From a virus: 64,000 nt of DNA. This document shows, piece by piece, positions 3,378 to 34,870 of the stretch. Position numbers and translations under genes: made by a program. Location: IMG/VR virus record IMGVR_UViG_3300025141_000060, positions 1-64,000 of that record. The stretch is one strand, 5' to 3'. Positions within the stretch are counted from its first letter, which is position 1. Each line of letters opens with the position of its first letter. Under the pieces are notes generated by a model. The model did no database searches. It was not told the DNA's origin and saw nothing but the letters and a program-made list of their open reading frames with translations.

Positions 3378-3385
3378 TATTTATA
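3378..3385 (-). promoter_or_regulatory. Late-promoter-like octamer TATAAATA
   Basis: An exact match on the minus strand to the T4 late promoter core TATAAATA. It lies 19 bases past the hairpin that follows the gp15-like gene and upstream of the 58-residue protein, sheath and tube. If spacing is as in T4, the transcript would start near 3372, very close to the first ATG, so the 58-residue gene would have almost no leader and the Shine-Dalgarno would be lost. It may mainly serve the sheath gene. AT-rich sequence makes chance matches common; the repeated arrangement elsewhere raises its credibility. Confidence 0.45.
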
Positions 3386-6088: not shown

Positions 6089-6278
6089 TCTTTATTTCCT
6101 CGTTATCATGTACTACTTTAGGTCTCCCCCTCTTGCGACTAGGATTATTTAAAAGAACTAAATAATCATTATCCAAAATAGCATTAGATTCAATTATTTG
6201 CTTAGGTCTAATCTCTATAATTTTATCGCCTATAGTAGTTAGCATTCTAAACTTACATTTGCTTTGATATTTATACAT
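6039..6278 (-). CDS. Small AT-hook protein between capsid and neck genes
   Basis: 79 residues if it starts at the ATG at 6278. An internal ATG at 6245 would give 68 residues (MLTTIGDKIIEIRPKQ...) and would be the better start if the late-promoter octamer at 6268-6275 is used. The body is short beta/helical sequence. Residues 48-54 are RKRGRPK, the core of an AT-hook, which binds the minor groove of AT-rich DNA; the tail is polar and probably flexible. It overlaps the gp13-like gene by 50 bases. Shine-Dalgarno matches are weak for both starts. A DNA-contact role at the packaging vertex is only inference. Confidence 0.6.
   Translation of the reverse strand: MYKYQSKCKFRMLTTIGDKIIEIRPKQIIESNAILDNDYLVLLNNPSRKRGRPKVVHDNEEIKNEEPTKQPSSDPKTKA
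6268..6275 (-). promoter_or_regulatory. Late-promoter-like octamer TATAAATA
   Basis: An exact TATAAATA on the minus strand, 23 bases past the terminator of the capsid gene and upstream of the neck genes. In T4 spacing the start point would be near 6262, inside the longer version of the AT-hook reading frame, which favours the shorter start at 6245. The arrangement hairpin then octamer repeats the one at 3378-3431. Confidence 0.5.
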
Positions 6279-14968: not shown

Positions 14969-17179
14969 TTACCTAATAGTAGCTTCCGACCCGTCTATAT
15001 TCTGCTCTCGTTTAAGTCTTACACCACCACTAAGCCCAAAATTATTGCTTGTACTAGAACTGGTAGTAACAGTAAAGGCGACAGTTCTTTTGTGGTCTAT
15101 GTCCACTATAGTTTTATAACTTAAGTGTCCGTGAACAGTGTCTGAACCACTCGATGATACGTTCGGTTCTCCAATCCTTTCTCCATCAAGCCGTTGTTCA
15201 TGAGGAGCAGGAGCTAGTTTTTCGTCCGTATCAGCATCAACCATCTCAATCCAAAAGGTCTTACTTGCATCATGCTGTCTAGTGTCCCAAATACTTATGT
15301 CTAAGTCCAAGCTGTACCTCCCAGGGATAAGCTCTACCGTGACATCACCATCTGCGGGAGCACTAATAGCCGAAGGGGTTGAATATTCAGCAAAAGCCTC
15401 AGGCCAGTTCTCTACTAAATTACAATTAATATTTTTTGCATCATATAAAGGGCATTTAAATCCCACACCATTCGAATCTGCTACATAATTGGAACCATCT
15501 ATATGCACAGTATGTATAGTCGAGGTTAACTGGGGTTTAGGCACAACAGCAAAATTATCTAATTGACCAGTAATATCACCAGCAATGGTATTCACATACT
15601 TCATAATAAAATCTCTCATAGATTCAAGGCTATTATAAAGTTCGTATTTTCCTGTAGCTGGATTAGCCAAGGATAAAGGTGGGTTAGCAGCACCTACTCC
15701 AGCCCTCTCATTATATGTTAATTCAGCAGTTCTAAGGAAAGGACGGATATCAATAATATCATCTACCGTAATAACAGGACTACCCCTTTTAACAATTACA
15801 TAACATAAAGGAAGGACTGTTTGGCCTAAAGTAGTTAAATTAGATTCCGTCGCGTTATCTGCTAAAATAGGAGCTAAGTTCAAAAGATCATCAGGTGAAG
15901 GAAAATTATTTCCTACGTCTCTACCTTCTCCAAAAGGAGTATTATTAGTCCCTAACTGATCAGAAAGAGGGGATTGAATACTTAAATCTGCAAACTCAGA
16001 CAACTGCTGTTGTAGATCATAATATTTATCAGGATTATTCGCTTGGGAATCCCAAGGAGGAGTTCCAATAAAATCAGAATTGTTAATTATATCGTAGGCT
16101 ATGTCGCCTTGAAAACTCTTAGGGGTGAGGATTGCACCCGCACCCTTAACAACCCCTAAAGTAGGCTTCGTTATCTGCTGAGGTCCTCCTCCGCTATCTT
16201 TAACAATATGGGATGCAGGACTATCCACAGGATGAGAATACATAAATACTAAATCTATTCTAACTTGTGGGTCATACGTATCATTTTTGTCAATATAATC
16301 ATAATCTTCAAAAGGAGGAATGATTATTGATAACTGATCAGTAGAGTTAACTACAGAGGTCCTAAAGACCCCCTTCCATCTCCTACAGAAATCGACAGAT
16401 AGTTGCTGAAGGTCAGGGAGGTAAGGTGCTTCGAAAGCGGTATTACTTCTTTGTTGCCATACCGCCGATTTAATTTTTGGCAACATAGAAAGAGATAAAC
16501 TTCCAACTGATAAAAAGGTGGGATCTAAAACAGTAGTTAAAGTAAACGGGCCTCCGGGAACACTAGCGGAACTAATTGGTGGATCAGTTACAAATAAAGA
16601 GGCGTGATGTTGATAATGATCAAATAATCCATTATTATATAATAACTGATTAATTTCAGAACTTACCAGAGCTTGAAATAAAGGATTACTTAGAACAATC
16701 GAAGGTGTTGTATAAACAGGGCTTCGTGCTAAATCTATAGTAGCTACATCCTCAGAAAAAGATGCCCACAAATCTTGGGGGGATGAACTATAAGCATCAT
16801 TTATTCTAGCGGTAAACTTCCCTGGACGAACATATAAAACTCGATCAGAATTGGTTACAAATGGCTGTAAATCAGTAATCTTAGACAGTGGGATTCCCGT
16901 AACATCAGTATCAATCCCCATGATTTGATCTTTCAACCACAAACAGTTCTCATGGATTTGCTTAAGAGGAATATTATCTACTTCATAAAAGTAAGGATCA
17001 TTAGCCTTGTAATATCGAGGAGGGTCAGTAAACCTAAAAGGAGAGGATACAAAATCAAATGATGCGTCTATTGAAGCGTTTGTTAAATTAAGAACATTTG
17101 ATCCTCCGTCACCCCCTCCGTTTGAGTCATCGCCATAGGCGTTCATAAAAACATTAAAGTTATTCAAATAATTCATCAT
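14969..17179 (-). CDS. Baseplate-attached structural protein with DNxP motif
   Basis: 736 residues. Near the N-terminus (60-86) is DPYFYEVDNIPLKQIHENCL followed by WLKDQI, a segment also found in variant form in the upstream 1169-residue fibre. It probably binds the same baseplate partner. The C-terminal part (from about residue 600) reads as a beta-sandwich (VTVELIPGRYSLDLDISIW, FWIEMVDADTD) and could be a tip or lectin-like domain. Two adjacent ATGs occur; GGAG fits the second (17176) slightly better. It overlaps the fibre gene. Exact role unknown. Confidence 0.7.
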   Translation of the reverse strand: MMNYLNNFNVFMNAYGDDSNGGGDGGSNVLNLTNASIDASFDFVSSPFRFTDPPRYYKANDPYFYEVDNIPLKQIHENCLWLKDQIMGIDTDVTGIPLSKITDLQPFVTNSDRVLYVRPGKFTARINDAYSSSPQDLWASFSEDVATIDLARSPVYTTPSIVLSNPLFQALVSSEINQLLYNNGLFDHYQHHASLFVTDPPISSASVPGGPFTLTTVLDPTFLSVGSLSLSMLPKIKSAVWQQRSNTAFEAPYLPDLQQLSVDFCRRWKGVFRTSVVNSTDQLSIIIPPFEDYDYIDKNDTYDPQVRIDLVFMYSHPVDSPASHIVKDSGGGPQQITKPTLGVVKGAGAILTPKSFQGDIAYDIINNSDFIGTPPWDSQANNPDKYYDLQQQLSEFADLSIQSPLSDQLGTNNTPFGEGRDVGNNFPSPDDLLNLAPILADNATESNLTTLGQTVLPLCYVIVKRGSPVITVDDIIDIRPFLRTAELTYNERAGVGAANPPLSLANPATGKYELYNSLESMRDFIMKYVNTIAGDITGQLDNFAVVPKPQLTSTIHTVHIDGSNYVADSNGVGFKCPLYDAKNINCNLVENWPEAFAEYSTPSAISAPADGDVTVELIPGRYSLDLDISIWDTRQHDASKTFWIEMVDADTDEKLAPAPHEQRLDGERIGEPNVSSSGSDTVHGHLSYKTIVDIDHKRTVAFTVTTSSSTSNNFGLSGGVRLKREQNIDGSEATIR

Positions 17180-20100
17180 ATACTCCTATCTAAATCGAAC
17201 ATGTTAATTGATTTTAGTCCTGCTCCTTGTCCATATGTAGCCCCACCATTGCCTGGGTTCCCGATTCCACCCCAATGGGTTGTAGATTTATAAATAGATA
17301 CATTAGGTGAGGCTCTTCCTGCGATTGGGGGCGCGGCACAGTTCTTAGCATTTGCAAAAACATCAGCAGCCCCCTCATCCAAATAAACATTTGTTCCTCT
17401 ATTAGGATCTATCACAGAAGAGGGGAAATAATACCCAGATGCTTCGGCTTTTTGCCCTGAATACCCATATCTTGTGGTATAGTGCAAAAGACCTAGATTA
17501 GTTGAGGTAACATCGTGAATGCCGCTTGGAACCCCAATATTGCCAGAAAGATTATATCCTTGCGCTAAATGCTGCATAGGTCTTGTGTCACCTGTTGCAA
17601 ACTCATCTATTCCTGTATTAGTAGGGGTCGCAGAAACATACCCCACATATCTCAACATAGGATTAACACTGAAGAATAATCTAAAAGGCCCCTTATTTAA
17701 GAAAGATGAGTGTGGGAAATCTTTTACATCACCTGTATACGCTTTATTTATGGCGCTCATTTCTACCGTCATAAAAGCAGATGCGTCATTGAACCCTAAG
17801 CCGTAACGATCACAAACACTAAGGGTTGAGGTGTCTGGTGTAGAGCTTAATGCACCATATGCAATGGCAGATCCATCCCGCCAGTCACGAAAACCGTGTC
17901 CCCCCTCAGAGAGTCCGCTAAGGAAAGTAGATCTAGGCCCGTGATAAGGTGTGGCAGAGGGGGTTGCAGCACTCACGGCTAAATGGGAAGCATAGAGCTT
18001 AGAGGTATCGCCTATATTCCATATCCTAAGTTGGTTACAACCTCCTGCGGTTGAACTTGCATCGAAATAGGTCCCATCAGCTAAAGTATATCCCGTTAGG
18101 AAGTGAACGCTATTTGCTTTTACTATACTATTCCCAAAAGCTTGTACACACATCCCCCCCGTTGATAAGGTGCTTTGTATGGTAGCCGAAGCCGAATCAG
18201 TAAAAGGATTAGTTAATAGGTAATTATATGCAATTTTACCACCAGTAGCGGGTTGAATAAGCTGGTCATGTTCGGCTGCTGTCATAACATCAGAATCTAA
18301 ATCAACGTCTGCCAAATTAACATCTATATGGTTTGTAGCATAAGATGCTAAAGCGGCGTTAGGATAAAACTGCATAGACCCTGCACTAACGAATTTTGCT
18401 ATATTAGAATCACTAAAATCACTATTAGGAATAGCGCATACTGTATTAGGACTTCCTAAGTTCTCCATAATAAGTTGAGAATTATTCACAACCGCAGCAC
18501 AGGTTTTTCCTGTGGAGTGTAATTCAACAGAGGTATGGTTCCCTTTGTTTAGTAAATTAAACCCAGTAACATCTAAATTTTGATCCAACCTCTTATGCGG
18601 AACAAACTCTACCACTGAATCATTTTCGCCAAGAACACAGGTCCCAAACTGAACAATTGAGGTAGGTCCTCTGAAAGAGACCTTAGAAGAATTTTCTGCA
18701 CAAACCCCTGCTACATTCTCGGAATCTCCAAAGTCTGGGGATCCCACGATGATAGTAGCGCCTTTAACAGTCCCCATGAAATTAACTTGAGAAGAGTTAG
18801 AAGCTTTGAGAGCAGCACCCCTTAAGCCTGAAGTTGTGTTGCTTAAGGAACTAGTATGAATCCTTGCGTGAACCAAATCGGCTTTGGATCGGTTCACGGA
18901 GATAGCAGGTATGGGACCATACAGTTCCCCATGAGAATCGTTAAACCGTAATGCTCCAAATTTATCAGGTATATTAATTGTGGATACATCTAAATAAGGA
19001 CTAAACTCACTACTATTATTTAAGTTTAAATGACATCCGTTTCTATGGAAGAATGTTTGTGCCATTCTGTTGGAATCTTTATCCACAGAATAATCTCTTC
19101 GTACTAAACCGTTATTATATTTTATAACAGAATTGTCTGCTGTTATGCCATTTGTCGTATGATTTTCAACAGTTAATCGGTCAGTCGATACATAAGAGTT
19201 CTTTAGCTCTACACCTATTTTATTGTTATAAATATCTAGATTTCCACTAACATCAATAACAGAGTTGGTTGCTTTTATACCAACATCATTATATGCAACA
19301 GCTAAAGTGGCATCATTCATAGTAGTATAGGGTCTACTCTGTCCCCCAACAAAAGTACTATTTTCTAGTAGTATTCCTGTATCATGGTTTTGAATATTAA
19401 AAAAGTAATCACTTCCAGAGGCATAAGTTGGGTCTATCCTTGCATCCACCCTACTATTAATTAGGTGAAGCCCAATAGTCTTTCTACTATTCCTAGTTTC
19501 TCCAGGGTCATCAGTTCCTACTTCATAATTTCTATTCGCAACAAAACCCCGTGTTAATTTAACGTCTGAGTTAATAAATTTAGCCCCAACCTCTTTATTC
19601 CGTGTTACAGAACAATTTTCAATATAAGGGCTAGAGTTTACAACTGTAATACCAATATCATTCTTATAAGTACTGTTTTTAAATACAGTCCCACCACCAC
19701 TAACACCATCAACACAGAACCCGCGTAAATAAAGAGGCCCAGTGCAATCCTCTATAAGAACAGACGAAACAGAATTAGCGTAAGTAACTCCTGTCATTTG
19801 TCTGTCCCAAGTAGTTGCGGGAGTAGACCTTTGAATTATCGCTTCTGTATCCTGTCTGAAGGATGATACATCTAATGAAGAACAGGAACCATCTTTAACG
19901 TTATTTGTAGCTCCATAAGAGAAGTTTTCATAATTAAGAAAAGAAAATGTTGCCGATAGCTGGGTATCAGTGTTGAGGAAATTAGCATAGGAATTCGCTC
20001 CCACATCTACAAACCCATAATATAGTCTACTATTGCGACTTCTATTTCCAGCAAAATTAACTGATTGAGCAAAAGTTCTGTTATAATGTTGTACAAAAAG

Positions 20101-20685
20101 GGAAGAACAATTAGCGGAAGTGGATAACGCAGAAGTATTTAAAATAGTAGAACTTAAATCCACAGAGGATAATTCAGTTACATAACCTCTAGTCCTAGCC
20201 GCAGCAACACTTGACGCATTACCTAAGGCAGAAGCATTAACATGGGTAACTCCATTCCCTCTTCCCGAATAGATTTTAGCAAAACCTCTATTAATAATCT
20301 CTAAAACACCCGCACCTTCAACCCTGATATCCTTTAATTTTAAACCACCTAAATGACCACTAGCAGCAACTTCAATAAGGGTAGGGGTCCTAATTACCTG
20401 AGGAAGAGAGTCCACAGCATCCTGTAAATTTGTGAAAATATTGCGGTTATTAGGGTCAGCAGTCCCTGAAACAACTAAAGGCATTCCGTTTAAGGAAGAG
20501 GTAAAGTATCCTGTAGCTTTTTCCCAAAGGCCAAAAGTCCTTTCCTCTAGATCGTAGATAGGCTGATTGTCTTGTTCCCAATTGTAAAAAGATTGGCTAT
20601 CAAACTTTGTAACAAAGGGGTTAAAATATTTGTATAGTTCTGTTCCCGCTGAAGCAGAGTAAAGGTCATTTTGATTAAAAGGCAT
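17176..20685 (-). CDS. Beta-helix tail fibre or tailspike
   Basis: 1169 residues. The N-terminus (33-57) has FYNWEQDNQPIYDLEER then LW, a likely docking motif. From about residue 75 to 800 there are repeated short strands ending in Asn/Ser, such as FKNSTYKNDIGITVVNSSPY, SVTRNKEVGAKFINSDVKL and FVGG, the rung pattern of right-handed parallel beta-helices with Asn ladders. The final 300 residues change to Gly/Tyr-rich sequence with YGYSGQKAEASGYYF. Beta-helix fibres in phages bind or cut polysaccharides; I see no definite catalytic residues. The start codon follows the previous stop by 2 bases without a good Shine-Dalgarno, so it is probably coupled. Confidence 0.8.
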   Translation of the reverse strand: MPFNQNDLYSASAGTELYKYFNPFVTKFDSQSFYNWEQDNQPIYDLEERTFGLWEKATGYFTSSLNGMPLVVSGTADPNNRNIFTNLQDAVDSLPQVIRTPTLIEVAASGHLGGLKLKDIRVEGAGVLEIINRGFAKIYSGRGNGVTHVNASALGNASSVAAARTRGYVTELSSVDLSSTILNTSALSTSANCSSLFVQHYNRTFAQSVNFAGNRSRNSRLYYGFVDVGANSYANFLNTDTQLSATFSFLNYENFSYGATNNVKDGSCSSLDVSSFRQDTEAIIQRSTPATTWDRQMTGVTYANSVSSVLIEDCTGPLYLRGFCVDGVSGGGTVFKNSTYKNDIGITVVNSSPYIENCSVTRNKEVGAKFINSDVKLTRGFVANRNYEVGTDDPGETRNSRKTIGLHLINSRVDARIDPTYASGSDYFFNIQNHDTGILLENSTFVGGQSRPYTTMNDATLAVAYNDVGIKATNSVIDVSGNLDIYNNKIGVELKNSYVSTDRLTVENHTTNGITADNSVIKYNNGLVRRDYSVDKDSNRMAQTFFHRNGCHLNLNNSSEFSPYLDVSTINIPDKFGALRFNDSHGELYGPIPAISVNRSKADLVHARIHTSSLSNTTSGLRGAALKASNSSQVNFMGTVKGATIIVGSPDFGDSENVAGVCAENSSKVSFRGPTSIVQFGTCVLGENDSVVEFVPHKRLDQNLDVTGFNLLNKGNHTSVELHSTGKTCAAVVNNSQLIMENLGSPNTVCAIPNSDFSDSNIAKFVSAGSMQFYPNAALASYATNHIDVNLADVDLDSDVMTAAEHDQLIQPATGGKIAYNYLLTNPFTDSASATIQSTLSTGGMCVQAFGNSIVKANSVHFLTGYTLADGTYFDASSTAGGCNQLRIWNIGDTSKLYASHLAVSAATPSATPYHGPRSTFLSGLSEGGHGFRDWRDGSAIAYGALSSTPDTSTLSVCDRYGLGFNDASAFMTVEMSAINKAYTGDVKDFPHSSFLNKGPFRLFFSVNPMLRYVGYVSATPTNTGIDEFATGDTRPMQHLAQGYNLSGNIGVPSGIHDVTSTNLGLLHYTTRYGYSGQKAEASGYYFPSSVIDPNRGTNVYLDEGAADVFANAKNCAAPPIAGRASPNVSIYKSTTHWGGIGNPGNGGATYGQGAGLKSINMFDLDRSI

Positions 20686-20687
20686 GT

Positions 20688-21275
20688 TTAGAAATTAATA
20701 GTCCACTTAAATAAAAGTGCAAAGTTGCTAGTTTTTTTCAAACCAGTAAAAGGTCGATAAGCTACCAAAATTGGTGCTATAGGTGATACTCCTCTAGGGT
20801 TTCTCAAAAACAACCCAATCTCATCTAGATTAGTATCCAAACCATTAGCTGTATATCTATCTAAAATTAAATTAAATCTAACAGAAGTAGGGGCTACTTT
20901 TTGAATATTAGAAAAGGGGATTCTCACAAAACCCTCAGTGCTTGCTTTGATATCCCTATTTTGTATAGGCATAAGATCTTCAAGTAAAACCTCACTGCCA
21001 GCGGTTAGATATTCAGAGGTAGCTCCTCCTGTTAAAGGGGTATTAAGCTTATAGCTAGAAGTTCCATAATTGTCAGTATCGCCGCCAGTACCTACTTGAA
21101 AATTCAAAATTTGAAAATCAGAGATTGCTCCTGCTCCAGAACCCGCAAAAAGGTGTGAAAGACCTACCCCCATCCCAGAAGTAATTACATTTTTTTCCGA
21201 GAAATGGACTTCCTCAGTCCCATCCTCAAATACTTTTACAACTTCTAAATATCCTTTTGGTTTAAATTTTTCCAT
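20688..21275 (-). CDS. Stand-alone adaptor paralogue (tail fibre attachment fold)
   Basis: 195 residues that match, almost end to end, the first 205 residues of the sulfatase protein upstream and the two ends of the 617-residue protein before it. Shared parts: GYLEVVKVFEDGTEEVHFSE, then VITSGMGVGLSHLF, FQVG, DEIGLFLR, ILVAYRPF, and KTSNFALLFKWTINF at the end. It is therefore the minimal unit of a three-member family and probably the common fold that binds the baseplate or fibre. Its start and the stop of the sulfatase gene share one base. Function beyond adaptor or assembly is unknown. Confidence 0.72.
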   Translation of the reverse strand: MEKFKPKGYLEVVKVFEDGTEEVHFSEKNVITSGMGVGLSHLFAGSGAGAISDFQILNFQVGTGGDTDNYGTSSYKLNTPLTGGATSEYLTAGSEVLLEDLMPIQNRDIKASTEGFVRIPFSNIQKVAPTSVRFNLILDRYTANGLDTNLDEIGLFLRNPRGVSPIAPILVAYRPFTGLKKTSNFALLFKWTINF

Positions 21276-24200
21276 TATTCCACTGGGTCATCACCCATAC
21301 TGCCATCAGAAGGCGAACTAAATATAGTGTTAGGTACTACCCTTGTATTATAAAAACGATTAAATCCTTGATGTAACGCATCAAAAATCCTTGCTAAGTT
21401 CCAATAGTGTACACTATTATCTAGTTGTCCACCATTAGCATTGCCATTATTTATACCCCCTTGTGCTACGGGCAATTGAATAGCAGAGACAATTAAAGAA
21501 CTAGCTATATGATTCGCATAAACTCCTTTATTTTCTTCTAAAATAAGATCATTTAGTTCGTACAAATCAACCCCACTAAAATCTACAAAGCTCTGTAGAT
21601 GATACATTTCTTCATACCATTTCCCAAAACCTTGCGTTAAAGCAGTTTGAATTTGATTACCATTTTCATCAAGAACATAATCTCCTGCCGCATCCGTTTC
21701 CCAAACAAGATCACCTACATCATGAGCAAAATTAGATCCCAACCCTACCTTGCCCGAACTAGGTCTTATTAGTTTCCATACACCACCGCTAGTATCGGGA
21801 ATAGCTTCTTTAGATTCTATTGTTATAGCCACATCGGGCGCATCATTAATATTTAAATAATTTATAGTCGGAGTCCATCTAGATGGAATATATCCAATAA
21901 AATCGTCTGGGACTAGTCTCAGTGTCAATGCTTGCCTACGTCTTCTAGGAGTTGTGGGCTGAGGGGTGTATCCACCTCGCATCCCACCCAACATCTCGGG
22001 TGGGCAAAGGACACTGCTTGTAAATGATCCGTGCATTTTTTGATCGCCTGTACTATTACCTATAGGGAAGAAAGCTTCACCCCAAGAATACTGTCTTGCA
22101 TGACTTGAGGCATCGGTTACACCTTTAAGAACATTATAAAAAGAAATCGAATCAGAAGGTATATTAAGAGGGTCTCTCGCAGGCAAAGTCGTCGCCCCTG
22201 CTATATCAGCAATAGTCGCTACAATATCCGTTAAATCAATCATAGCATGCGAGCTTACGCCTGCGGAAACTCCTGCACCACTAACAAACATTGGGACAAG
22301 CATACCTCTGTCATAAAGAGTTGCTTTAAACCCATTTGCGGTGTCGTTTTCTCCTCCCCGTCTAACGGCAGAAGGTGATAACCCAGAGCAATAAGCACCT
22401 AAGTTAAGCATCTTATCGTAAGTGGCCCCTAAACCCCCTGAGCCTGTGTAACTCCCACCCAAACTACTTGCATACCCAAGACCAATAGAAGAGGCATACG
22501 CTGCTCTCCGTCCTATATCAGGGCCTAATGCTCCATTATCGGAAGTTATAATAAAAACTGTATTCGATTTTTTCGTTTCATCCAAACCTTGTAAGAAAGA
22601 ACTTAGAGTTGAATCAAAGTTTTCTAGCATAGCATTAACTGTAACCCAAGTAGAAGACGCTGAATCCGTTGCTCCTACGCCTGCCTCTAATAAGGTATGC
22701 TGATTTATAGAGGACAACCCACTATTATATATGCCTCCTGAAGGGGGCCATGTATACGGAGTGTGTGGTATGTTGGGCGAAACATACATGAAAAAGGGCT
22801 CTTGGGCTGTATTAAAATAAGCACTAGCAGCCGAGAAGATGTAGTTTGTAGTATAAGAACTTGCGTCCCCTTGCCCGTACTCAACCTCGTCCGCAGACTG
22901 CTTAAAGCTTACATAATTGGAGTCAGAAACGGTATAAGTATCAGCAGTGGGAACACCTTCCTTCGTTGGTATCCCTGGTTTGGCGACAAAATAATTAACA
23001 TATCCCATATTTTTACCACCAGTATAGTACGAAGTTGATCCATTGTTAGGCCAATCATCTGGCTCAATAAACGCACCACTATTAGGATTAAGTCCAGGTA
23101 TTGGATCAGCATCCAAATTAGAGAAAGTAGCTAAATAATCATCCCAGTAACCCTTTAAAGCAATGTGTGACCAACCATCACCTTTCCTAGTCGGGCTATT
23201 ATCTTCACAATAAACAATATCATCTTCCCATATAGATAAGTGCCATTTACCAAACATAGCACACTGATAATCAATATCAGGTCTCTTTAAAAAGTTTCCT
23301 ATGACAGGAGTAGTTGTTATAGTATTCACTCCCCCCAATCCGTCCTCAACCTGATTAGTTAAGTTTTCAAGATCTCCGGTCTTATTTAAAAACCTAAACC
23401 CAGAATTCAGGCCCTTTAAACCACCTCGCGTCCTTCTTGCCGAACTTGGGACAATTCCTATCCCAGGACCCCAGAACCCACGACCTGTGCCTCCGAAATT
23501 TTTAGTACTAAAATTATATCTTCCTGTAAGTAAAGCTGCTCTGGTGGGAGCGCAGGCTGGTTGCGCCCTAACATTAAACATTTGCATTCCAGCAGCAGCA
23601 ATTGCACTTAAGGTAGGGGTATAAGGATATAAACTACTTCCATTAACAGGATCATCTAAAACACTAAACGGGGTGGCGGCTGTATGGTTATCATTCTGTA
23701 TTTCGTAAGGATTAATAGCATCGTAGTTTCCTAAATGATCCATCCCTACATCATCTATCATAATAAGAACAACATTCTTTCGATCACCTCCAGGCGTAGT
23801 TTCCGAACTCTCCTCATCTACGATAAACTTTAATTGCCAATCAATAACTAAAGAAAAATCGCTTGTTTTTGTTATTCCTGATCCATCTGCTAACTGTTTA
23901 TATGCCACTAAAACTGATTGATCTTTTTTTATATTAGCCTTTCCATCTCTAATAAATAAACCAAATTCTGTGATAGGCACATTATTCAAATTATTTGCCA
24001 TCTCTTCTGTTAACGTCAATCTATAGTGTACCACTCCATCTATAACTTTAGTGGAATGAGAATCAGGTAAAACGGCAAACACCCCCTCATCATACTGAGT
24101 AGCGAAAGCAGCATCAAAATTTGAAGGATGATACTTGAGAATTTCGTGAGTATTAATCCGAATCTCTGAGTCTTTTCCATAATCATCTTCAAGCATTAAA

Positions 24201-24442
24201 GGATTATTGAGAGTACTTATATATTTTGCTGTGCCTGCTTCAACATGATCATCTGGGTTTAGTCTGCCTAAACCAACTTGAAAATAGCCTACGAGATGAT
24301 CTGAAAGATCAGTGGATCCCGTATCCGTAAAGATGTTGCAAAGCCCAACACCAAGTCCATCGGTAAGAATGTTATGATCTTTACATACACACTCTTCTGT
24401 ACCATCCTTAAAAACTTTAGTAATTTCTACTGATCCTTTCAT
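21275..24442 (-). CDS. Virion-associated sulfatase fused to a tail adaptor domain
   Basis: 1055 residues. Residues 1-207 are the adaptor fold shared with both neighbours. From 222 onward is a full Cys-type sulfatase of the alkaline phosphatase superfamily: metal-binding VVLIMIDDVG (D230, D231), the formylglycine signature C297-A-P-T-R301 followed by AALLTGRYN, FGKWHLS (398-403), FFMYVSPNIPHTPY (550-563), VFIITSDNG (629-637) and SHAMIDLTDIVATIADIAG. All expected catalytic motifs are present. It should remove sulfate esters from glycans, but only if the Cys is converted to formylglycine. No FGE or anSME is in the window, so the host would have to supply it. No signal peptide; the adaptor implies display on the tail. 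Confidence 0.93.
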   Translation of the reverse strand: MKGSVEITKVFKDGTEECVCKDHNILTDGLGVGLCNIFTDTGSTDLSDHLVGYFQVGLGRLNPDDHVEAGTAKYISTLNNPLMLEDDYGKDSEIRINTHEILKYHPSNFDAAFATQYDEGVFAVLPDSHSTKVIDGVVHYRLTLTEEMANNLNNVPITEFGLFIRDGKANIKKDQSVLVAYKQLADGSGITKTSDFSLVIDWQLKFIVDEESSETTPGGDRKNVVLIMIDDVGMDHLGNYDAINPYEIQNDNHTAATPFSVLDDPVNGSSLYPYTPTLSAIAAAGMQMFNVRAQPACAPTRAALLTGRYNFSTKNFGGTGRGFWGPGIGIVPSSARRTRGGLKGLNSGFRFLNKTGDLENLTNQVEDGLGGVNTITTTPVIGNFLKRPDIDYQCAMFGKWHLSIWEDDIVYCEDNSPTRKGDGWSHIALKGYWDDYLATFSNLDADPIPGLNPNSGAFIEPDDWPNNGSTSYYTGGKNMGYVNYFVAKPGIPTKEGVPTADTYTVSDSNYVSFKQSADEVEYGQGDASSYTTNYIFSAASAYFNTAQEPFFMYVSPNIPHTPYTWPPSGGIYNSGLSSINQHTLLEAGVGATDSASSTWVTVNAMLENFDSTLSSFLQGLDETKKSNTVFIITSDNGALGPDIGRRAAYASSIGLGYASSLGGSYTGSGGLGATYDKMLNLGAYCSGLSPSAVRRGGENDTANGFKATLYDRGMLVPMFVSGAGVSAGVSSHAMIDLTDIVATIADIAGATTLPARDPLNIPSDSISFYNVLKGVTDASSHARQYSWGEAFFPIGNSTGDQKMHGSFTSSVLCPPEMLGGMRGGYTPQPTTPRRRRQALTLRLVPDDFIGYIPSRWTPTINYLNINDAPDVAITIESKEAIPDTSGGVWKLIRPSSGKVGLGSNFAHDVGDLVWETDAAGDYVLDENGNQIQTALTQGFGKWYEEMYHLQSFVDFSGVDLYELNDLILEENKGVYANHIASSLIVSAIQLPVAQGGINNGNANGGQLDNSVHYWNLARIFDALHQGFNRFYNTRVVPNTIFSSPSDGSMGDDPVE

Positions 24443-26292
24443 ACTGTCCCTATAAAGTTAAGCTTCCAAACAATTGTTAGATCGGAGTACTGGTCCGCCC
24501 CAGCAACGGTCCCCGCATCTTTTATAGCACACAAATTTTTAGTTAAACTCTTTTCTGCAAATAACTTATATACTATTTTATTATAGCCTGCCCCAAATTT
24601 AAGGGGGAAACTTGGTAAGGCTTTTGGTTGTCCATCAAGTCGAGTAGTGGATAAGGTTTTATCTAAATCAAGTGTCCACAAGCCTAACTTATATATACCA
24701 CCATACATATTAGCTAACCCTAAATCACCTGATGATATTGTACAAATACAGGATAATTCACTCCCCCCAATAGCTGAAAAATCAGCGTCTGCTGAGACAA
24801 TTAATCCTGATGCTGGGTCAATAATACGGTTAGGATATATTGGTTTTCCACCTTCATCTACATTAGTAAAAGCAGTCGTTGAAGAGGGCATATACGCTCT
24901 AACAAAGCCATCTCTATCCATAGCTCTTACTGAAGACGAGTTGAAAAAGTTATCGTCCCCTGGGCTTTTTGGATAAGTCCCACTAAAATAAATGCTGCTT
25001 GTGCCACCAGTGGAATTTTCAATCTTTGATAACGACGATAAAATTGCATAATCAGTGCCGCTAGTATGGGGATAACACCCTAAAAATATATCTCCATCAA
25101 GCCCCCCTTCCTCAAAAGTTGGGCGCACACCCGACACTTTTTGGTATTTAGTGGCTCCATAGCTTTCCTCTAACTGCCAACCCCACATAAATAGGCTCCC
25201 ACCAGTAGGAGATCCATTGGAAATATTATACCTAACTTCTACTTGATCGCCATTCACAGTATTTGCATCAGTACCCAACCCTTCTAAATACGCATCCAAT
25301 CTATACCAACCAGTAGAAGACGTTTCGGAAACTACAGGAGTAACACTACCTAGTATACCATTTGTGCCTGTTACAAACTCTGGGGGAATATGCTTTCCTG
25401 CTGTTGAATCCCATAGAGAGAAGGTAGCAATATGGTTAACAGCCGTTCCTGTCTTATCTCTTATGTGCATAGTAAATCCAGAAGTTTCATTACCAAATTC
25501 AGGTTGCTTAATATAAAGACTTAGAGTATGGTCTACATTATCATGAAAACTTGTTTTCCATAAATTAACCGAGGATTGTCTTAGGCTGCCTACCGTGTTG
25601 TATGTCGAACTTACATAATAAGCAGATGTTCCGTAGAAGGGGCCTGTATGCGTTCCCGACAAAGTAGCAGTTGCAACATTAGCAGAAGTCCAGTAAGCTA
25701 AAGGAGGGTCACTCCAAGGACCTTCAGTGTAAGACAGAAGATTTGGGTTACTTTGAGAGCCAAGCCTATTTAAATTATGTCCCACCGCATGGGCTCTACC
25801 TTGCATCAACGTAGCTCCCATGTGATGATATTGACCAGACGCTGCATCTATCGCAGCCATTGTGTCAGGCTCTAATTGCTTATCTGTAGGGTTGGGAGCT
25901 AGACCTGGATCTCTTTTGGGATCGTAAGAGGATGTGGTAGAGGCTATATTTTCATTAACAAGAGACACGGCGCGAACTCTATTATCACTTTTAACGGAGC
26001 TTACATACGAATGATACTTAGAACCCACGCTCGTATAATCCGAGACACTGTGGGGATAAAAATGACCATTATTTCTATAAGCATCAGAGCTTTTACCAAA
26101 TGATATTGCCTTTATGGTAAAGTTTGAAGCGTCTGTAACACCTTTAACAGGTGCTACATTAATAGAAGAGGGGGTTGTTAAAAGAGTACAGATGTTCTCA
26201 GAAGCCCCATCGACCCACAAATTGGATTCTTTATGAACTAGTTTTTGATTATCTGTTGCAAAATTTTGATAAATTTCTACGGTACCAAACAT
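24439..26292 (-). CDS. Tail protein: split adaptor with inserted carbohydrate-binding-like domain
   Basis: 617 residues. The N-terminus (FGTVEIYQNF, then KESNLWVDGASENICTLLTT) and C-terminus (NKIVYKLFAEKSLTKN, then SDLTIVWKLNFIG) match the two halves of the adaptor in the next two genes. The middle carries extra material. Residues about 200-375 form a jelly-roll pattern (TLSLYIKQPEF, FTMHIRDKTG, GWYRLDAYLEG, LFMWGWQLEESYGATKY), typical of CBM4/9-like domains in phage fibres, where the last strand ends in W/Q-L-E. The likely job is receptor or polysaccharide binding beside the sulfatase. It is coupled to the sulfatase gene by a 4-base overlap. Confidence 0.72.
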   Translation of the reverse strand: MFGTVEIYQNFATDNQKLVHKESNLWVDGASENICTLLTTPSSINVAPVKGVTDASNFTIKAISFGKSSDAYRNNGHFYPHSVSDYTSVGSKYHSYVSSVKSDNRVRAVSLVNENIASTTSSYDPKRDPGLAPNPTDKQLEPDTMAAIDAASGQYHHMGATLMQGRAHAVGHNLNRLGSQSNPNLLSYTEGPWSDPPLAYWTSANVATATLSGTHTGPFYGTSAYYVSSTYNTVGSLRQSSVNLWKTSFHDNVDHTLSLYIKQPEFGNETSGFTMHIRDKTGTAVNHIATFSLWDSTAGKHIPPEFVTGTNGILGSVTPVVSETSSTGWYRLDAYLEGLGTDANTVNGDQVEVRYNISNGSPTGGSLFMWGWQLEESYGATKYQKVSGVRPTFEEGGLDGDIFLGCYPHTSGTDYAILSSLSKIENSTGGTSSIYFSGTYPKSPGDDNFFNSSSVRAMDRDGFVRAYMPSSTTAFTNVDEGGKPIYPNRIIDPASGLIVSADADFSAIGGSELSCICTISSGDLGLANMYGGIYKLGLWTLDLDKTLSTTRLDGQPKALPSFPLKFGAGYNKIVYKLFAEKSLTKNLCAIKDAGTVAGADQYSDLTIVWKLNFIGTV

Positions 26293-29200
26293 TTAATTAT
26301 CAACCTCCAACTGAGTATAATTTCCATAAGTTCCATCCTCACCAGTCCCCACGGGGTCTGGGTGATTTCTATAAGAAAGCCTACTTCCACCACTAGCACA
26401 ATGTACAGCAGAAGAATCAGACCAGACACGAGTATTAAATCCCTTCCTTGTTGCTGCTTTCCCTAGTTTATTAAAGTACCTAAATAAATGTAATAAATCA
26501 ATCGGCTCTATAGATTTATACCCTTTCACTGATTTTCCTATATTGGTTCCTTCTATAGACCCCGATAAAGTTAAAACCCGTGCGCTTTCTGGTTCCTGTG
26601 AGAAATTCTCGGGCCTTAAAATCCTCTTACCCAGGCTAAAGTTTATTGGACCTGAATACTCTAACCCACTATTATCGTAAAATTTAATACCTTTATAAAG
26701 ATTGGCCTTAAAAACAGAATAGGGCGCAGATGATTTAACTAAAGTTAGCTTTTTTAAACTCGAAAGATCTTTCTCATAAGTATAGACCTCGTCATTACTA
26801 TCTTTATATAATTTCCTACCTACTAAAACCTCTTCGTTTTCATATATAGTAAGCATATTTGTCTGCGCTGAGTCGTAACTAATTACATTTGCTATTTCTC
26901 CTGTAGCAGCATTGCCTCCATTATTTGAGGGTGTGGGATTAAGTTGGTTGTGCCCTAATCTAAATACACGAGACTGTTCGTATCGCCTAAAATCCCCAGC
27001 CCTAGTTGCAGCATATAATCCATACCCCCAAGTAAGTAGTTTGCAAGGAGTGTGCAGGATAGCTTCTCGCTGATTATTGCCTACTGGAAGGTCTTCAGGG
27101 AGTAACCCATCAAACCTATCGTTATACGCCTGCACAAAACATCTAAGCCCCTTATTTTGTACAGCATCTATTCCTAAGGTGGCATTTCCAGCATTCATCT
27201 CAAATGCATCATAAGGAATAGTTACCCTGACCTTATACCAGGACACTTTATCTGCGTTAGGGTATAGGGTAGTCCAAGGAACAACAATTTCTTCAACAGA
27301 AGCAGCATCATCGCCCGTATAAGAATGTCCGTTGGTTAGAATAGAGCTTGTATAGGCCCCTGCCCCCCAATAGGGAGAGGCAACAGGCTCTCCTAATTTA
27401 AGTACTAATCTTGTGTAACTATTATTACTTCCTATAGGCGCAATCGTGACCATCGCTGATGTGGCATAGTTATCTTGAAAAGATTCGTCTCCCTTAGCTT
27501 TTCCTCTAAGATAAACACAAAAACTATATGGTTGCCCTTGTATTAATTTATTTCGTTCAACATCTCGATAAACGGACAAAGGAGGGAAAGTTATACCTCC
27601 CGCCTCTGAAAAACTATTATATTGTTCGTCCGATACACCCCAAACATTTGTATTAGGGTGAGCGCGGCTTCTTCCAGCCTGGAGTTGGAAGAATGATCTT
27701 GCTGCCCCAACCATCCCTGTTGGGTCTAAAACAGTTGGAAGAAGGGGGTCCACCCCTGCTGGTACATACTCCCAATTATCTTCATCCCCTAACGCATCTA
27801 TATCTAAGAAAACATTATCGGATTCTGTTATAGTAGGTTTAACTCTCTTACTAGTAAAATCTATCTCAATGGGTTCTCCAATAGAAAAACCCACAATCCA
27901 ACCAGAAAAAGGGTTATTACCTGTATAATTTTCTAAATCACTATAAAAGAATCTATCATCTTCTTTAGAATATCCTAATGGATTAGTGTTTCCAGGTAAT
28001 AGTGTATTGAGTTCCAAGAATGTTTTTGGTGTTGAGACCATATGTTGTTCTATGCACGAGTGCCCTGGTCTAGCTAATGCTAATAATGGAGAACCCAACA
28101 AGGACCCTCGCTGGTGTGTATGGAAATAAGGCCAAACCGCTAAACCCCCTCCAAAACCCAAACTGGTTGGGTTTTGGCTGATCTCTTCTCTTTTGCCTTG
28201 AGGTATATAATCTGACCATTGGTTATAGGAGTGGAAGCCCTTTCTGGCTACCCAATAAGCTGTATGAAGATCACCGTCGTTCGCTCCGCCAGGGGCATGA
28301 TTCTCACCAAAACCACTAGGCCATTTTGTCATAGTAGAATTACATATTCCTGTGTATGGAATTTTGCCCATCAATCCATCATCTCCTACATCATCCCCAT
28401 GCTCTGAATAGAAGTTAAGAATCGCCCCACCTGGAAAAAACTCACCGCTATTGGGGTTTCTATAGCTATTCCAGTCAGGTGCTCCAATAACTGTCCACAA
28501 CTCACTAGCGTAACTCATGGGTCCACAATCACCCCCTGGATTCTCACAAACCGCTAAAATATTAGGAAGATCCCCAACAGAGGTTCTAAAGAGATCATAG
28601 GTAAGGTCCCCAGCTATATCTGTACCTACAGTAGTTGAGGATTTGGTTAATGCTAGAGGGCTTCCATCTGGCATACGTAATTCAATCTCCTGTGGAGCAT
28701 CTTGCTGCAAAGTTAAATCAGGAATAACGGCTTCATAAGGTACTTGAGCGGCATCGTTAAGTGTTTTATCTACTAAACTTATGTCATCAAAAACAACAAA
28801 TCTTTTTTCGGAATTTAGGTTGGGATATTGGAATAACTCTAAAATATAATCTTGCGATAGATCTGAATCAAAAATGTTCGCTCTATGAAGTTGAACGTGA
28901 CGCCCGTTATATATGCTGGAAAGCGAGGAATCAGCATTATAATAAGTTCCATACTCAAAAGGAACTGGAGTTTTTTGGTTTTTTGTATGGAACTTAAGCT
29001 TTACGGACTGCTTATCCTCTTCTGTTATATACCTAAGTAGTGTATTATTATCACTGATAACGTCACACTGAGTATCTTGAATCTGTATATTAGTTTCTTC
29101 CTTTCCTAAGAAAGTATGTGTATAGTTATTTAATATATTGGAAATACCTGAAGCAGCATTATTTATATTTGAAACTTTTTCCATCTTCCACTCCCCATTA

Positions 29201-32200
29201 GGAGCCCAAAAGAAAACCACAGAATCACCGTTATTAGTTTTTTCAACTTTAGTTCTAAGAACCGCACCAATGCTTCCTCCCCCTAAAATCGAAGAATCTA
29301 ACTTACCCGTAAAAAAGTTAACAGTTAACTCAAAATCATGATCAGGAATAAGTATATTTTTTTCCATCTCTGTGTAGCCAGACAAATCGAATTTTATTCT
29401 AGGTAAGCCTGCTCCTCTTGTTCGCATATAAACACACGGATTCTTTATTAGATAATTATCAAACGTAGAATTTACAGTCTTTTGGTCTGAATCAAAATTT
29501 AATATAGCAAAATCAGTAGCTATAGAACCTAAATTCAATCTATCAGATGAAGAAGTGTCAATAAAAGAAATACCGCTCAAGAAGTGAGAGGCAACAAATT
29601 CAGGATTACCGTAGTAAGGGGTGTTTGCATTTTGCACAGACGAAACACCTACCTCACCGTCAAGAAGTGCGGCACCAGAAACATTTAATTGTATATAAAA
29701 AGGATTCTGAATTTTTGTAGTTATAAGGTTTGTTGCTGGGGTGGAATCAGGCAAAAGTATCTCAGGATCTATTGCTGAACCATCAATAGAAAAATCAGAA
29801 TTATAATAAATGGGTCCGTATGTATGAGATAAAATCGTAGGACCTCCTTGCTTAACAGTAACAAGCTGATTTTCAGGCAACGAGCTTCCATCAAGTGCAG
29901 AAAGAAAATATTTATTATATGTGTTGTATATCGTATGAATCCCATTAGCGTTTCTTCTTCTAAGACTAAACTCTCTCTTATCGAGCTTAGGGGATAAATA
30001 TTTATCGAACCCAACATCCTCTATCATATTAGCAAAAGACCTTGGTACATCTTTCCAAATCGAAGAAGCAGAAAATAGGTTATAGTTAAGTTTATAAGTC
30101 TCATCAGCAATACCTTCTTTCTTCAACTCATGAAATTTAAACAATGTATAGATCTCTTCTGGTAGCGTATCCCTCCTAACAAACTGATCACAAGAGGAAA
30201 AAGCAAGTGAGTCATAGTTTCTTGATAAGAAAGCACTACTAACATTTAAATTAAAGTAAGAATCATTAGATGCAGAGCCTGCGCAATCTTTTGAATACAC
30301 CCCACTAAGGTTTTCTGGAGTTGCAGGAACTAAACCAAATGAAGAAGGATTCCAACCTAAAGGAAGAAAATCTAGTATAGAACTTGTATTATTATAGAAA
30401 GTAGGCATATTACGTCCACCTCTGTCAAACCATCCTTTTTGTTCTAAAGTGTTATGAAAATCTCTTCTTCTTAAGGATTTTCTTTTTACTGGTTGTCCTA
30501 TATTGGTAGCTGTTGGGGGCACTATCTCAATAGTATTGACAACCGAAGATACAATGTTATTAGAATATTTGGCTTGTTCTCTAGTGAATACGGGTAACTT
30601 AGCATGTTCGATGGTGCTTTGGGAATCATCAAAACCATTATATTTCTCTTCTCCTAATGCAAACCCTGTAATTCTATCGTAGATACCTGACGCAGAAAAG
30701 TTATTAAGCATTCCTGAGACTCCACAAACATCTTGCCCCCTAGCGCCAACCTCACCTACGTCTTTACGCGGAACAATAATACTAGGACATATATAATCAA
30801 TACCGCTTGCATACTCCGCTGCTTTTAAAACAACTCTTGTTCTAGGAATTGCTTTAGCAGGCACAAAATCATCCATTATAGACAAAGATTGAAGTATCTC
30901 TGCATTGCTGTACTGCCCAGAGGAGTCTTGAAATAAAATACTGGAGAAATCGCCCGAACATACCGTAAAATCAAAAGTTGAGGATTTCCCATTCCACAAA
31001 CTTAAAGCATCATAATCTTGGTATACTTTATTATCAATAATACTATCGTAATTTGGAGGTAGCTGTACGGAGGAGGTAAAGAAGACATACCCATTATCTA
31101 AATATAAATCAGTACGATCATTCCCAGATAAGATATAATTATTGGTATAATCATAGAAGCTGTTTGTAAAATTAACATCAATACAGAATCGCTCTAATTC
31201 AGATTTGTAAAAATGAAGGAGTTCGTCAGTTACAGCACAATTTCTAAAAAACTTTTCATCATCCCAAGGTGGGACAGGTGTAGTACGCCCTCTGTAATGA
31301 AATCTAAAATTATCATCGCCTTTAATAGCTAATTTTTTTGAGTATAGTTTGGAATAATACTCTCCTGTGTACCAAGTCCCCTCCCAGTTAACAATAGGCC
31401 CAAGCCAACCTCGCCCGTCCTCAGTTATATTAAGTCTAAAAGGCTCATTTCTGATAAAGAATAGATACGGATAGGCTTCTACGGCATTACTTATAATGCT
31501 GTCAACAGCCGCTCTAATATTTTGGTCTTTATTATTTGAACTATAGGTTTGTGGATCAATACCATAAGAAATAGCGGTATCAATACTGTATGTTTTTGGA
31601 TTAAACATATCAGTCTCAGTTATTAGTAAATAATAAAGTAATTGAGGAATATAGGACTCAAACATTTCTGATATTGCGCCACTAACATCAATAGGATTAT
31701 TTACAATAATGGTATCAAGTGCATCAATTAACCCTTGTTTAGTTCCTTTTTTTCTATAAAGGGATGCAGCATTTCTTATTTGATTCCTCCATGATGCAGG
31801 ATTATTTCCATAGAGTTTCCACCCTAATAAGCTGGCGAGGTATGGAAGGTACTCAGGAGGACAATTTTCAATAGATCCTAATGTTTCTAAAGATTCTACT
31901 TGATTGTCAATATCTCTTAAAGAATAAGAAAGCCCTCGTAAAAATTTATGAAAGGGACCTTTAGGTTCTGTGCTTTGTAATTCGTAATTTGAAGAGCCTA
32001 AACCAGCTTCTATAGCATTTTTTACTACTTCATCTTCCCTGTCAATATAAAGCGGGGAATAAATAACATCAATTAGAGTTTTTAGCTTATCAAGGTTTTG
32101 GGTCCCACTTGTATACGATCCAGTTCCTGACTGAAAACTCCCAGGAAGCATCTTAGCGTCTAAAGAGCTAAAATTAGAGAAGTTAGTCCAAAGATATTCT

Positions 32201-32796
32201 TGATAATCTTTAATGCCGTCATTTATTAAATACGTTGTATTTTTATAAAGGTTCTTAACAATAGAACTAGCTATCAATGATGATGGAGAAGACACAGGAC
32301 CGCTAGTATTTAAAAAATACAACCAACTTAGATTTGATATAAGGTACGCATGCGTACCTGAAGTCGTTGTTGCATAGTTTGCGGACGTATCAGAAAGCAA
32401 AGTACTAGAATTTAATGTTATTTTTGGGAGAAGAGTACCACTCAAAAAAGTAAGAAATTCAGAGGAGGTACCATAGTCCGAATACTTATAACCCAACGGA
32501 GTTAATATGTTCTGTTGGAAGTCATTAGAAGTAATGTCTGTTAGCTTATTTTGTTTTACAAAGTACTGACTAAACCCGCTTGGGGTATTTATTGCACTTA
32601 AAGTATTTGATTCAGATAGAGCACTAATATTTAATGTCTGTGCTATTTTATTGATTGATGCTAAATGGCTATTAATGATTAAGTCTGTAAGCTTAACCTG
32701 CGAGCCGCTTAAAGCGAGATCATCTTCCAGATACAAGTCTGGAGTTACTATCTTTACTGCATCTACAAAGTTTAGTTTTGAATACTTTTTTGCCAT
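26293..32796 (-). CDS. Giant baseplate wedge protein with P2 gpI-like domain (T4 gp7-like)
   Basis: 2167 residues, twice the size of T4 gp7 (1032). Residues about 312-368 contain LPYLASLLGWKLYGNNPASW, then RNQIRNAASLYRKKGTKQGL, the hallmark of the tail protein I / gp7 family. It lies right after the gp6-like gene as in T4 (6 then 7). The remaining 1800 residues seem to be a string of beta-rich domains, including a jelly-roll-like block near 1650-1850 (YSFCVYLRGKAKG, VSWYKVRVTIPYDAF) resembling carbohydrate-binding modules. It should bridge the inner baseplate wedge to peripheral fibres and probably contacts glycans itself. It starts on the last base of the gp6-like stop. Confidence 0.82.
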   Translation of the reverse strand: MAKKYSKLNFVDAVKIVTPDLYLEDDLALSGSQVKLTDLIINSHLASINKIAQTLNISALSESNTLSAINTPSGFSQYFVKQNKLTDITSNDFQQNILTPLGYKYSDYGTSSEFLTFLSGTLLPKITLNSSTLLSDTSANYATTTSGTHAYLISNLSWLYFLNTSGPVSSPSSLIASSIVKNLYKNTTYLINDGIKDYQEYLWTNFSNFSSLDAKMLPGSFQSGTGSYTSGTQNLDKLKTLIDVIYSPLYIDREDEVVKNAIEAGLGSSNYELQSTEPKGPFHKFLRGLSYSLRDIDNQVESLETLGSIENCPPEYLPYLASLLGWKLYGNNPASWRNQIRNAASLYRKKGTKQGLIDALDTIIVNNPIDVSGAISEMFESYIPQLLYYLLITETDMFNPKTYSIDTAISYGIDPQTYSSNNKDQNIRAAVDSIISNAVEAYPYLFFIRNEPFRLNITEDGRGWLGPIVNWEGTWYTGEYYSKLYSKKLAIKGDDNFRFHYRGRTTPVPPWDDEKFFRNCAVTDELLHFYKSELERFCIDVNFTNSFYDYTNNYILSGNDRTDLYLDNGYVFFTSSVQLPPNYDSIIDNKVYQDYDALSLWNGKSSTFDFTVCSGDFSSILFQDSSGQYSNAEILQSLSIMDDFVPAKAIPRTRVVLKAAEYASGIDYICPSIIVPRKDVGEVGARGQDVCGVSGMLNNFSASGIYDRITGFALGEEKYNGFDDSQSTIEHAKLPVFTREQAKYSNNIVSSVVNTIEIVPPTATNIGQPVKRKSLRRRDFHNTLEQKGWFDRGGRNMPTFYNNTSSILDFLPLGWNPSSFGLVPATPENLSGVYSKDCAGSASNDSYFNLNVSSAFLSRNYDSLAFSSCDQFVRRDTLPEEIYTLFKFHELKKEGIADETYKLNYNLFSASSIWKDVPRSFANMIEDVGFDKYLSPKLDKREFSLRRRNANGIHTIYNTYNKYFLSALDGSSLPENQLVTVKQGGPTILSHTYGPIYYNSDFSIDGSAIDPEILLPDSTPATNLITTKIQNPFYIQLNVSGAALLDGEVGVSSVQNANTPYYGNPEFVASHFLSGISFIDTSSSDRLNLGSIATDFAILNFDSDQKTVNSTFDNYLIKNPCVYMRTRGAGLPRIKFDLSGYTEMEKNILIPDHDFELTVNFFTGKLDSSILGGGSIGAVLRTKVEKTNNGDSVVFFWAPNGEWKMEKVSNINNAASGISNILNNYTHTFLGKEETNIQIQDTQCDVISDNNTLLRYITEEDKQSVKLKFHTKNQKTPVPFEYGTYYNADSSLSSIYNGRHVQLHRANIFDSDLSQDYILELFQYPNLNSEKRFVVFDDISLVDKTLNDAAQVPYEAVIPDLTLQQDAPQEIELRMPDGSPLALTKSSTTVGTDIAGDLTYDLFRTSVGDLPNILAVCENPGGDCGPMSYASELWTVIGAPDWNSYRNPNSGEFFPGGAILNFYSEHGDDVGDDGLMGKIPYTGICNSTMTKWPSGFGENHAPGGANDGDLHTAYWVARKGFHSYNQWSDYIPQGKREEISQNPTSLGFGGGLAVWPYFHTHQRGSLLGSPLLALARPGHSCIEQHMVSTPKTFLELNTLLPGNTNPLGYSKEDDRFFYSDLENYTGNNPFSGWIVGFSIGEPIEIDFTSKRVKPTITESDNVFLDIDALGDEDNWEYVPAGVDPLLPTVLDPTGMVGAARSFFQLQAGRSRAHPNTNVWGVSDEQYNSFSEAGGITFPPLSVYRDVERNKLIQGQPYSFCVYLRGKAKGDESFQDNYATSAMVTIAPIGSNNSYTRLVLKLGEPVASPYWGAGAYTSSILTNGHSYTGDDAASVEEIVVPWTTLYPNADKVSWYKVRVTIPYDAFEMNAGNATLGIDAVQNKGLRCFVQAYNDRFDGLLPEDLPVGNNQREAILHTPCKLLTWGYGLYAATRAGDFRRYEQSRVFRLGHNQLNPTPSNNGGNAATGEIANVISYDSAQTNMLTIYENEEVLVGRKLYKDSNDEVYTYEKDLSSLKKLTLVKSSAPYSVFKANLYKGIKFYDNSGLEYSGPINFSLGKRILRPENFSQEPESARVLTLSGSIEGTNIGKSVKGYKSIEPIDLLHLFRYFNKLGKAATRKGFNTRVWSDSSAVHCASGGSRLSYRNHPDPVGTGEDGTYGNYTQLEVDN

Positions 32797-34409: not shown

Positions 34410-34870
34410 AATGATATAGATAATTCGCTTTGTTCTTCTGATATTCTAGAGGCTACTAGAAGCCTAATCTTTAGTCCTGGTAGCCCAAATCCTTGAGCTT
34501 TATCTGATTTTAAAATATCTAGTCTCAATATTCTAACAGTAGGCAGGTAATTACTGACTCCTCCAACTATCTCCTTTTTCATACTAATTATGAGATCCTC
34601 TGTTATGGGCTCAAAAAGAAACCTTTTTAAAGATAGTCCAAAGTTAGGAAGCATAACCCGCTCCCCTCGTTCTGTTTTAATGAATTGTCTAAGCTCACTC
34701 TTAACCAGTTCAAAGCCTTTTGTCTTAACAAAGATTCCTTTAGCAGAATTAGTTTTATCATATAAAGGATATCGAACTCCAAAAATAGCCTCAGTAGAAA
34801 CTGCATTTATTATTTCATCAGTTACTGTTGTCGCAGGGGGTACACCAAAAATATTTGTATTAGTAATCAT
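34406..34870 (-). CDS. Baseplate wedge protein, GPW/gp25 family
   Basis: 154 residues (T4 gp25 has 132). Typical features are a segment FELVKSELRQFIKTERGERV followed by MLPNFGLSLKRFLFEP, where the E-R-x-M-x-P-x-F-G-S/L motif defines the family, and a final beta-strand pair with GLKIRLLVASRI. It forms part of the wedge core and primes sheath assembly. It overlaps both neighbours by 4 bases. Confidence 0.93.
   Translation of the reverse strand: MITNTNIFGVPPATTVTDEIINAVSTEAIFGVRYPLYDKTNSAKGIFVKTKGFELVKSELRQFIKTERGERVMLPNFGLSLKRFLFEPITEDLIISMKKEIVGGVSNYLPTVRILRLDILKSDKAQGFGLPGLKIRLLVASRISEEQSELSISL

Follow-up and report, generated by a model that had tools for sequence, protein, structure and literature searches.

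A predicted S1-type sulfatase fused to a baseplate-region adaptor domain in a T4-like phage

The tail-spike deacetylase gp63.1 of coliphage G7C is the closest functional parallel to the protein described here. It leaves the polysaccharide backbone intact, yet its activity is essential, and in the near-identical phage Alt63 this esterase module is swapped for a lyase (PMC10743462). Furthermore, SGNH deacetylases were reported to be common among the receptor-binding proteins of Klebsiella prophages (PMC13123978). Both systems remove decorations at the phage tail without cutting the backbone (PMC10743462, PMC13123978), as is proposed for the present protein, and both carry an exchangeable catalytic module on a conserved protein, as is found here. 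However, the gp63.1 type is an SGNH esterase of unrelated fold that removes acetyl groups and requires no formylglycine, whereas the phage fusion protein contains an S1 sulfatase domain. Membership among the SGNH deacetylase tail spikes was ruled out, since the catalytic domain is positively recognized as S1 sulfatase by Pfam family (PF00884) and fold.

The catalytic domain itself resembles the S1 sulfatases (SulfAtlas S1, PF00884), such as the carrageenan sulfatases PsS1_19B (6prm) and ZgCgsA and the S1_16 kappa-carrageenan sulfatase 9fo1. With these it has in common the signature, the catalytic and metal residues and the fold including the C-terminal part. Unlike known S1 sulfatases, it is phage-encoded and attached to a baseplate-region adaptor, some members bear an insertion of 270-290 aa, and its sequence is too distant from any characterised S1 subfamily for assignment. 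When the structure model was compared with the predicted viral structures of BFVD, giant viruses (Yasminevirus, Satyrvirus, Terrestrivirus) supplied the only named proteins of sulfatase type within the first 50 matches. These differ in belonging to another lineage, that of eukaryote viruses, and in lacking a phage tail adaptor.

The sulfatase domain: sequence, conservation and fold

The window, i.e. the whole 64-kb stretch analysed here, is part of a 74,990-base IMG/VR virus record; its relevant features are listed in Table 1. The fusion gene is intact, with an ATG start and 1055 open codons, and a Pfam search of its product returned a single family, Sulfatase PF00884 (E 9.8e-23, 81.3 bits, with a gathering score of 25 bits as cut-off). 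The same family exceeded this cut-off in 14 of the 15 records searched. A sequence-only reading had claimed a complete Cys-type sulfatase with the landmarks MIDD, C-A-P-T-R with LLTGR, GKWH, IPHTP and TSDNG in order. All of them were found as stated, namely MIDDV at residue 228, C297 in CAPTR, LLTGR at 304, GKWH at 398, IPHTP at 558 and TSDNG at 633, followed by a further catalytic lysine missing from that list, K706 in KATLYDRG. The updated SulfAtlas catalytic-site pattern (the C/S-x-P/A-x-R signature), which we took together with the G-K-W-H consensus from PMC5066984, is fitted by PACAPTRAALLTG at residue 295, and this is its only match in the six frames of the window. The older PS00523 pattern does not match the region of PACAPTRAALLTG, the sole cause being an Ala at pattern position 2. 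Given the PF00884 score, the ordered motifs and the single SulfAtlas match, the sulfatase signal is far beyond chance. In addition, the sulfate site with its metal ligands, Arg, Lys and His is complete (D230, D231, R301, K399, H401, H560, D635, N636, K706).

Table 1. Features of the window that are relevant to the fusion gene, with coordinates, strand and basis of the assignment.
Feature	Coordinates	Strand	Basis
gp18-like tail sheath (contractile-tail phage)	920..3181	-	phrog_23, E 5e-73
gp23-like major head protein (T4-like)	6361..7995	-	phrog_138, E 1e-77
736-aa protein, conserved, end of module	14969..17179	-	comparison of related loci
1169-aa protein, conserved downstream of slot C, same operon	17176..20685	-	comparison of related loci
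Slot C, stand-alone paralogue of the adaptor domain, 195 aa	20688..21275	-	sequence comparison
Slot B, adaptor-sulfatase fusion, 1055 aa	21275..24442 (stop codon included)	-	ORF, PF00884
S1 sulfatase domain, residues ~219-1036	21335..23788	-	PF00884 and S1 sulfatase fold match over 219-1036
CAPTR motif with C297 (predicted formylglycine) and R301	23540..23554	-	motif, alignment and SulfAtlas pattern
N-terminal adaptor domain, residues 1-207	23822..24442	-	common with 20688-21275; phrog_5417; Foldseek to tail-fibre proteins
Slot A, 617-aa protein, start weakly like the adaptor	24439..26292	-	sequence comparison
2167-aa tail protein	26293..32796	-	phrog_48 (tail protein), weak match
gp6-like baseplate wedge subunit	32796..34409	-	phrog_219, E 2e-34
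gp25-like baseplate wedge subunit	34406..34870	-	phrog_261, E 5e-13
w34867, 888-aa structural protein; homologues elsewhere carry a C-terminal sulfatase	34867..37533	-	phrog_8510, weak

Conservation among the relatives described below points in the same direction. D230, D231, C297, P299, R301, K399, H401, H560, D635, N636 and K706 do not vary among the 13 copies covering these positions, although some of these copies are only about 32% identical to that of the window, and CxPTR, GKWH and DNG are kept in two more copies. Loss of key residues upon alignment, named beforehand as an observation that would speak against a sulfatase, was thus not seen at any of the 11 positions. Comparison with an 85% identical relative (L003) gave a dN of 0.097 and a dS of 0.415 for the sulfatase domain, which by this sequence comparison is under purifying selection. 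These findings bear on the possibility that the sulfatase fold serves only for binding, with sulfated glycans recognized as receptor by a domain that is catalytically dead or has never been matured. Enzyme folds are often reused for binding in phage fibres, and maturation requires a host enzyme that is not on the record. However, a pure binder would be expected to lose some catalytic residues, whereas none of the catalytic, metal or signature residues, the nucleophile Cys among them, varies even at about 32% identity. We therefore regard a mere binding function as unlikely.

A structure model was built from an alignment of 33 sequences (pLDDT 54, pTM 0.52), with the catalytic loop among its poorly modelled stretches; this alignment was required, as prediction from the single sequence reached a pLDDT of only 30. 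The best solved structures for the model are S1 sulfatases, with Z of 20-22 over 345-380 residues within 219-1036, so that the structure prediction proposed in the sequence-only reading resulted in matches to solved S1 sulfatases at Z of about 22. Thus, by sequence and fold, residues ~219-1036 are confirmed as a complete S1-type (formylglycine) sulfatase with predicted activity. Within S1, the fold scores of this pLDDT 54 model are tied across subfamilies with none favoured, and sequence matches in PDB and NCBIfam are weak and scattered over S1 subfamilies. Consequently, the substrate is not readable from the sequence.

This is of relevance for the idea that the protein is a formylglycine hydrolase of another ester (PMH; phosphonate monoester or phosphodiester, SulfAtlas S1_0) which would act on phosphorylated surface polymers. 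PMHs have the same signature and fold (PMC5066984), and neither Pfam family nor fold fixes the substrate. Against it stand GKWH and DNG, which are sulfatase motifs (G-K-W-H consensus), and the fact that carbohydrate and aryl sulfatases are the solved structures most closely related in both sequence and fold. At the positions compared with PMHs, K399-W-H401 and D635-N636 are present; PMHs carry Asp-His where sulfatases have Asp-Asn. Such an activity is improbable in our view, and a sulfatase remains the preferred reading.

Baseplate module, adaptor domain and related loci

The window encodes a T4-like tail sheath, a major head protein, a head maturation protease and the gp6 and gp25 baseplate wedge subunits. 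The sulfatase gene is placed between the gp25/gp6 wedge genes with the tail protein on one side and two more conserved genes on the other, and the order of gp25, gp6, tail protein and slots A to C is kept in related loci. Since the gp23-like head protein is at most 34% identical to known records among the matches listed, the phage lineage is distant from isolates. Some further features of the region were recorded. The tail protein comprises 2167 aa here, and the truncated copies of L004 and L005 measure at least 2031 and at least 2065 aa, compared with about 1280-1540 aa where complete in phages with an adaptor only or with a w34867 fusion; the extra length may correspond to further domains. 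The DNA primase and helicase genes (46671-47675 and 57165-58526) lie on the plus strand of an otherwise mostly minus-strand region. Close to head and tail genes, the minus strand carries TATAAATA at 3378-3385 and 6268-6275. It resembles the consensus of the T4 late-promoter box, but was rejected as such a signal because its total count is barely above chance.

The N-terminal part of the fusion protein had been described as a 207-residue domain shared with adjacent tail proteins. This applies to slot C, which over its complete 195 aa is 37% identical to fusion residues 2-207 (E 1.9e-21), and in a weaker form to slot A, where likeness is confined to the first ~40 residues (36% over 47 aa in the copy of L003). 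Stop and start codons overlap at both junctions, the end of slot A with the ATG of slot B (as ATGA) and the end of slot B with the ATG of slot C (as TAATG), an arrangement consistent with translational coupling of the three genes. The phrog_5417 profile matches the adaptor domain, and a Foldseek comparison of the model with BFVD returned many short phage proteins and a few named tail fibres, matched over lengths that fit the adaptor domain; a second structural comparison aligned almost exclusively the sulfatase part of the model. Phage tail-fibre proteins such as the Stenotrophomonas phage Ponderosa tail fiber thus resemble the adaptor domain in fold or profile (phrog_5417), while tail fibres of this type, unlike the fusion protein, lack a sulfatase. 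From synteny and this structural resemblance, 'tail adaptor' seems a reasonable label for residues 1-207, one that expresses likeness to tail fibres rather than an established homology with any named baseplate protein of T4.

To find relatives, IMG/VR was scanned with the fusion protein and with profiles. The sulfatase domain is present on 16 further contigs, two of them near-identical, and occurs in two architectures. Eleven contigs (12 including the window) show the slot-B type with adaptor and sulfatase, one of them, L021, ending early within the sulfatase. The other five (L006, L014, L017, L070, L072) carry the sulfatase as the C-terminus of a w34867 homologue directly upstream of gp25; L017 ends before the fusion junction, with gp25 directly after its sulfatase. 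Both w34867-fusion contigs that extend far enough lack slot B, with slot C coming immediately after slot A. Moreover, slot B is an enzyme-free adaptor of 223-254 aa in 12 distinct loci of the otherwise same operon and is missing altogether in four. The two architectures form separate groups on the tree (support 97/95), on which long branches make finer inference unsafe. Because of the two fusion contexts and the loci with an enzyme-free adaptor or without slot B, the sulfatase is, as far as these sequences indicate, a separable cargo that, within a single baseplate module, has become attached to two distinct proteins.

Two observations concern individual relatives. L016 (5329-9393) and L018 (5344-9510) contain the 270-290-aa insertion within the sulfatase domain, past the GKWH region, and a Pfam search of this insertion gave no match. 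In L024 (2694-5939), a related phage without sulfatase, slot A measures 1082 aa and matches phage families annotated as RCC1-type (regulator of chromosome condensation), which suggests that cargo is exchanged at slot A too.

The operon context also speaks to two other explanations. Metagenomic lists of viral auxiliary genes include sulfatases (PMC10029852), and the enzyme could act inside the infected cell, freeing sulfate or sugar, with its fusion being incidental. However, in 12 contigs it forms an in-frame fusion with a conserved domain of the baseplate region, elsewhere it is joined to a second structural protein, it lies inside the baseplate operon, and no free-standing copy was seen among the sulfatase-bearing contigs. 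Such a metabolic role is improbable. Cellular contamination or an assembly chimera, which had been named as a possible refutation, must be considered as well, since S1 sulfatases are abundant in marine bacteria and several GenBank 'phage' records with sulfatases are in fact bacterial DNA. Yet the junction and gene order are identical in independent contigs, the neighbours are T4-like structural genes with which the sulfatase gene agrees in GC3, and no near cellular relative was found, the best being only 24% identical (L051). Synteny across independent contigs refutes contamination, the probability of which we regard as negligible. Overall, the initial interpretation is partly supported: the phage is a genuine T4-like one, and its Cys-type S1 sulfatase is complete and joined to an adaptor of the baseplate region.

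Phage and cellular sulfatases in databases and literature

A BLAST search of 50,697 phage records with the sulfatases of the window, L006 and L016 yielded no phage relative; two weak matches fell in draft contigs labelled Acinetobacter. Three GenBank 'phage' sulfatases (L065, L066 and L067; MG065691, MT835490 and MT835799) were discarded, as their surroundings, which include transporters and metabolic genes, look like bacterial chromosome. In the open-access papers searched, no published virion or phage sulfatase was found. Papers that pair phage with sulfatase were set aside, as they concern variable proteins of FGE fold, host genes or gene lists. The 2016 SulfAtlas paper (PMC5066984) nowhere uses the word 'phage' in its main text. 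However, a PHROG family of unknown function, phrog_19870, is similar to the sulfatase domain (E 1.6e-13), so that a phage sulfatase may have been clustered earlier. Given this resemblance and the open-access scope, priority is not certain.

The nearest cellular sulfatase found in a scan of genome contigs is L051 from a Planctomycetota MAG. At 24% identity it is far too distant to name either donor or host. A search of 199 Planctomycetota genomes with the phage profile (E 1e-20) gave no match and is uninformative, because scoring was limited to five candidates per genome and even the genome of L051 remained silent.

Maturation and proposed role

Motifs of the CxPxR type, as carried by this enzyme, are substrates of FGE in aerobes or else of anaerobic maturases (PMC10154612). 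Searches for FGE (PF03781) and radical-SAM proteins (PF04055) found neither on the record of the window nor on 14 related records, all of them fragments, while the same searches gave matches in control genomes. Activation would hence depend on a host maturase, as had been predicted with host FGE or anSME in mind. This dependence follows if the sulfatase is active and no maturase is encoded elsewhere in the phage genome.

Taken together, we consider it probable (about 0.72) that the fusion in this uncultured T4-like phage is a baseplate- or tail-fibre-associated virion protein which is matured by the host and desulfates surface polysaccharide at adsorption; we infer its incorporation into the virion, its maturation, its sulfated-glycan substrate and its role at adsorption. 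Residues 1-207 would dock the protein beside its two paralogues at the baseplate. Late in infection, host FGE or anSME would turn C297 of the nascent chain into formylglycine, and the matured protein would then become part of the baseplate. Once the next cell is reached, the enzyme would take sulfate off a sulfated surface polysaccharide, be it capsule, EPS or particle matrix, and thereby might let the tail bind, move along or get to a secondary receptor. We lean towards the view that these proteins represent the first described class of virion-borne desulfatases, with progeny infectivity hanging on a modification made by FGE or anSME of the previous host.

Known tail enzymes cut backbones or remove acetyl groups, and a tail sulfatase would extend the removal of decorations to sulfate. 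As sulfate is a hallmark of many marine polysaccharides, a tail sulfatase would imply that these phages encounter sulfated glycans on cell surfaces or particles. Since S1 sulfatases are inert until formylglycine is made, the phage enzyme could be switched on only in suitable hosts, which would tie the infectivity of the progeny to host physiology in a testable way. Beyond that, phage sulfatases would constitute a new and divergent source of carbohydrate sulfatases.
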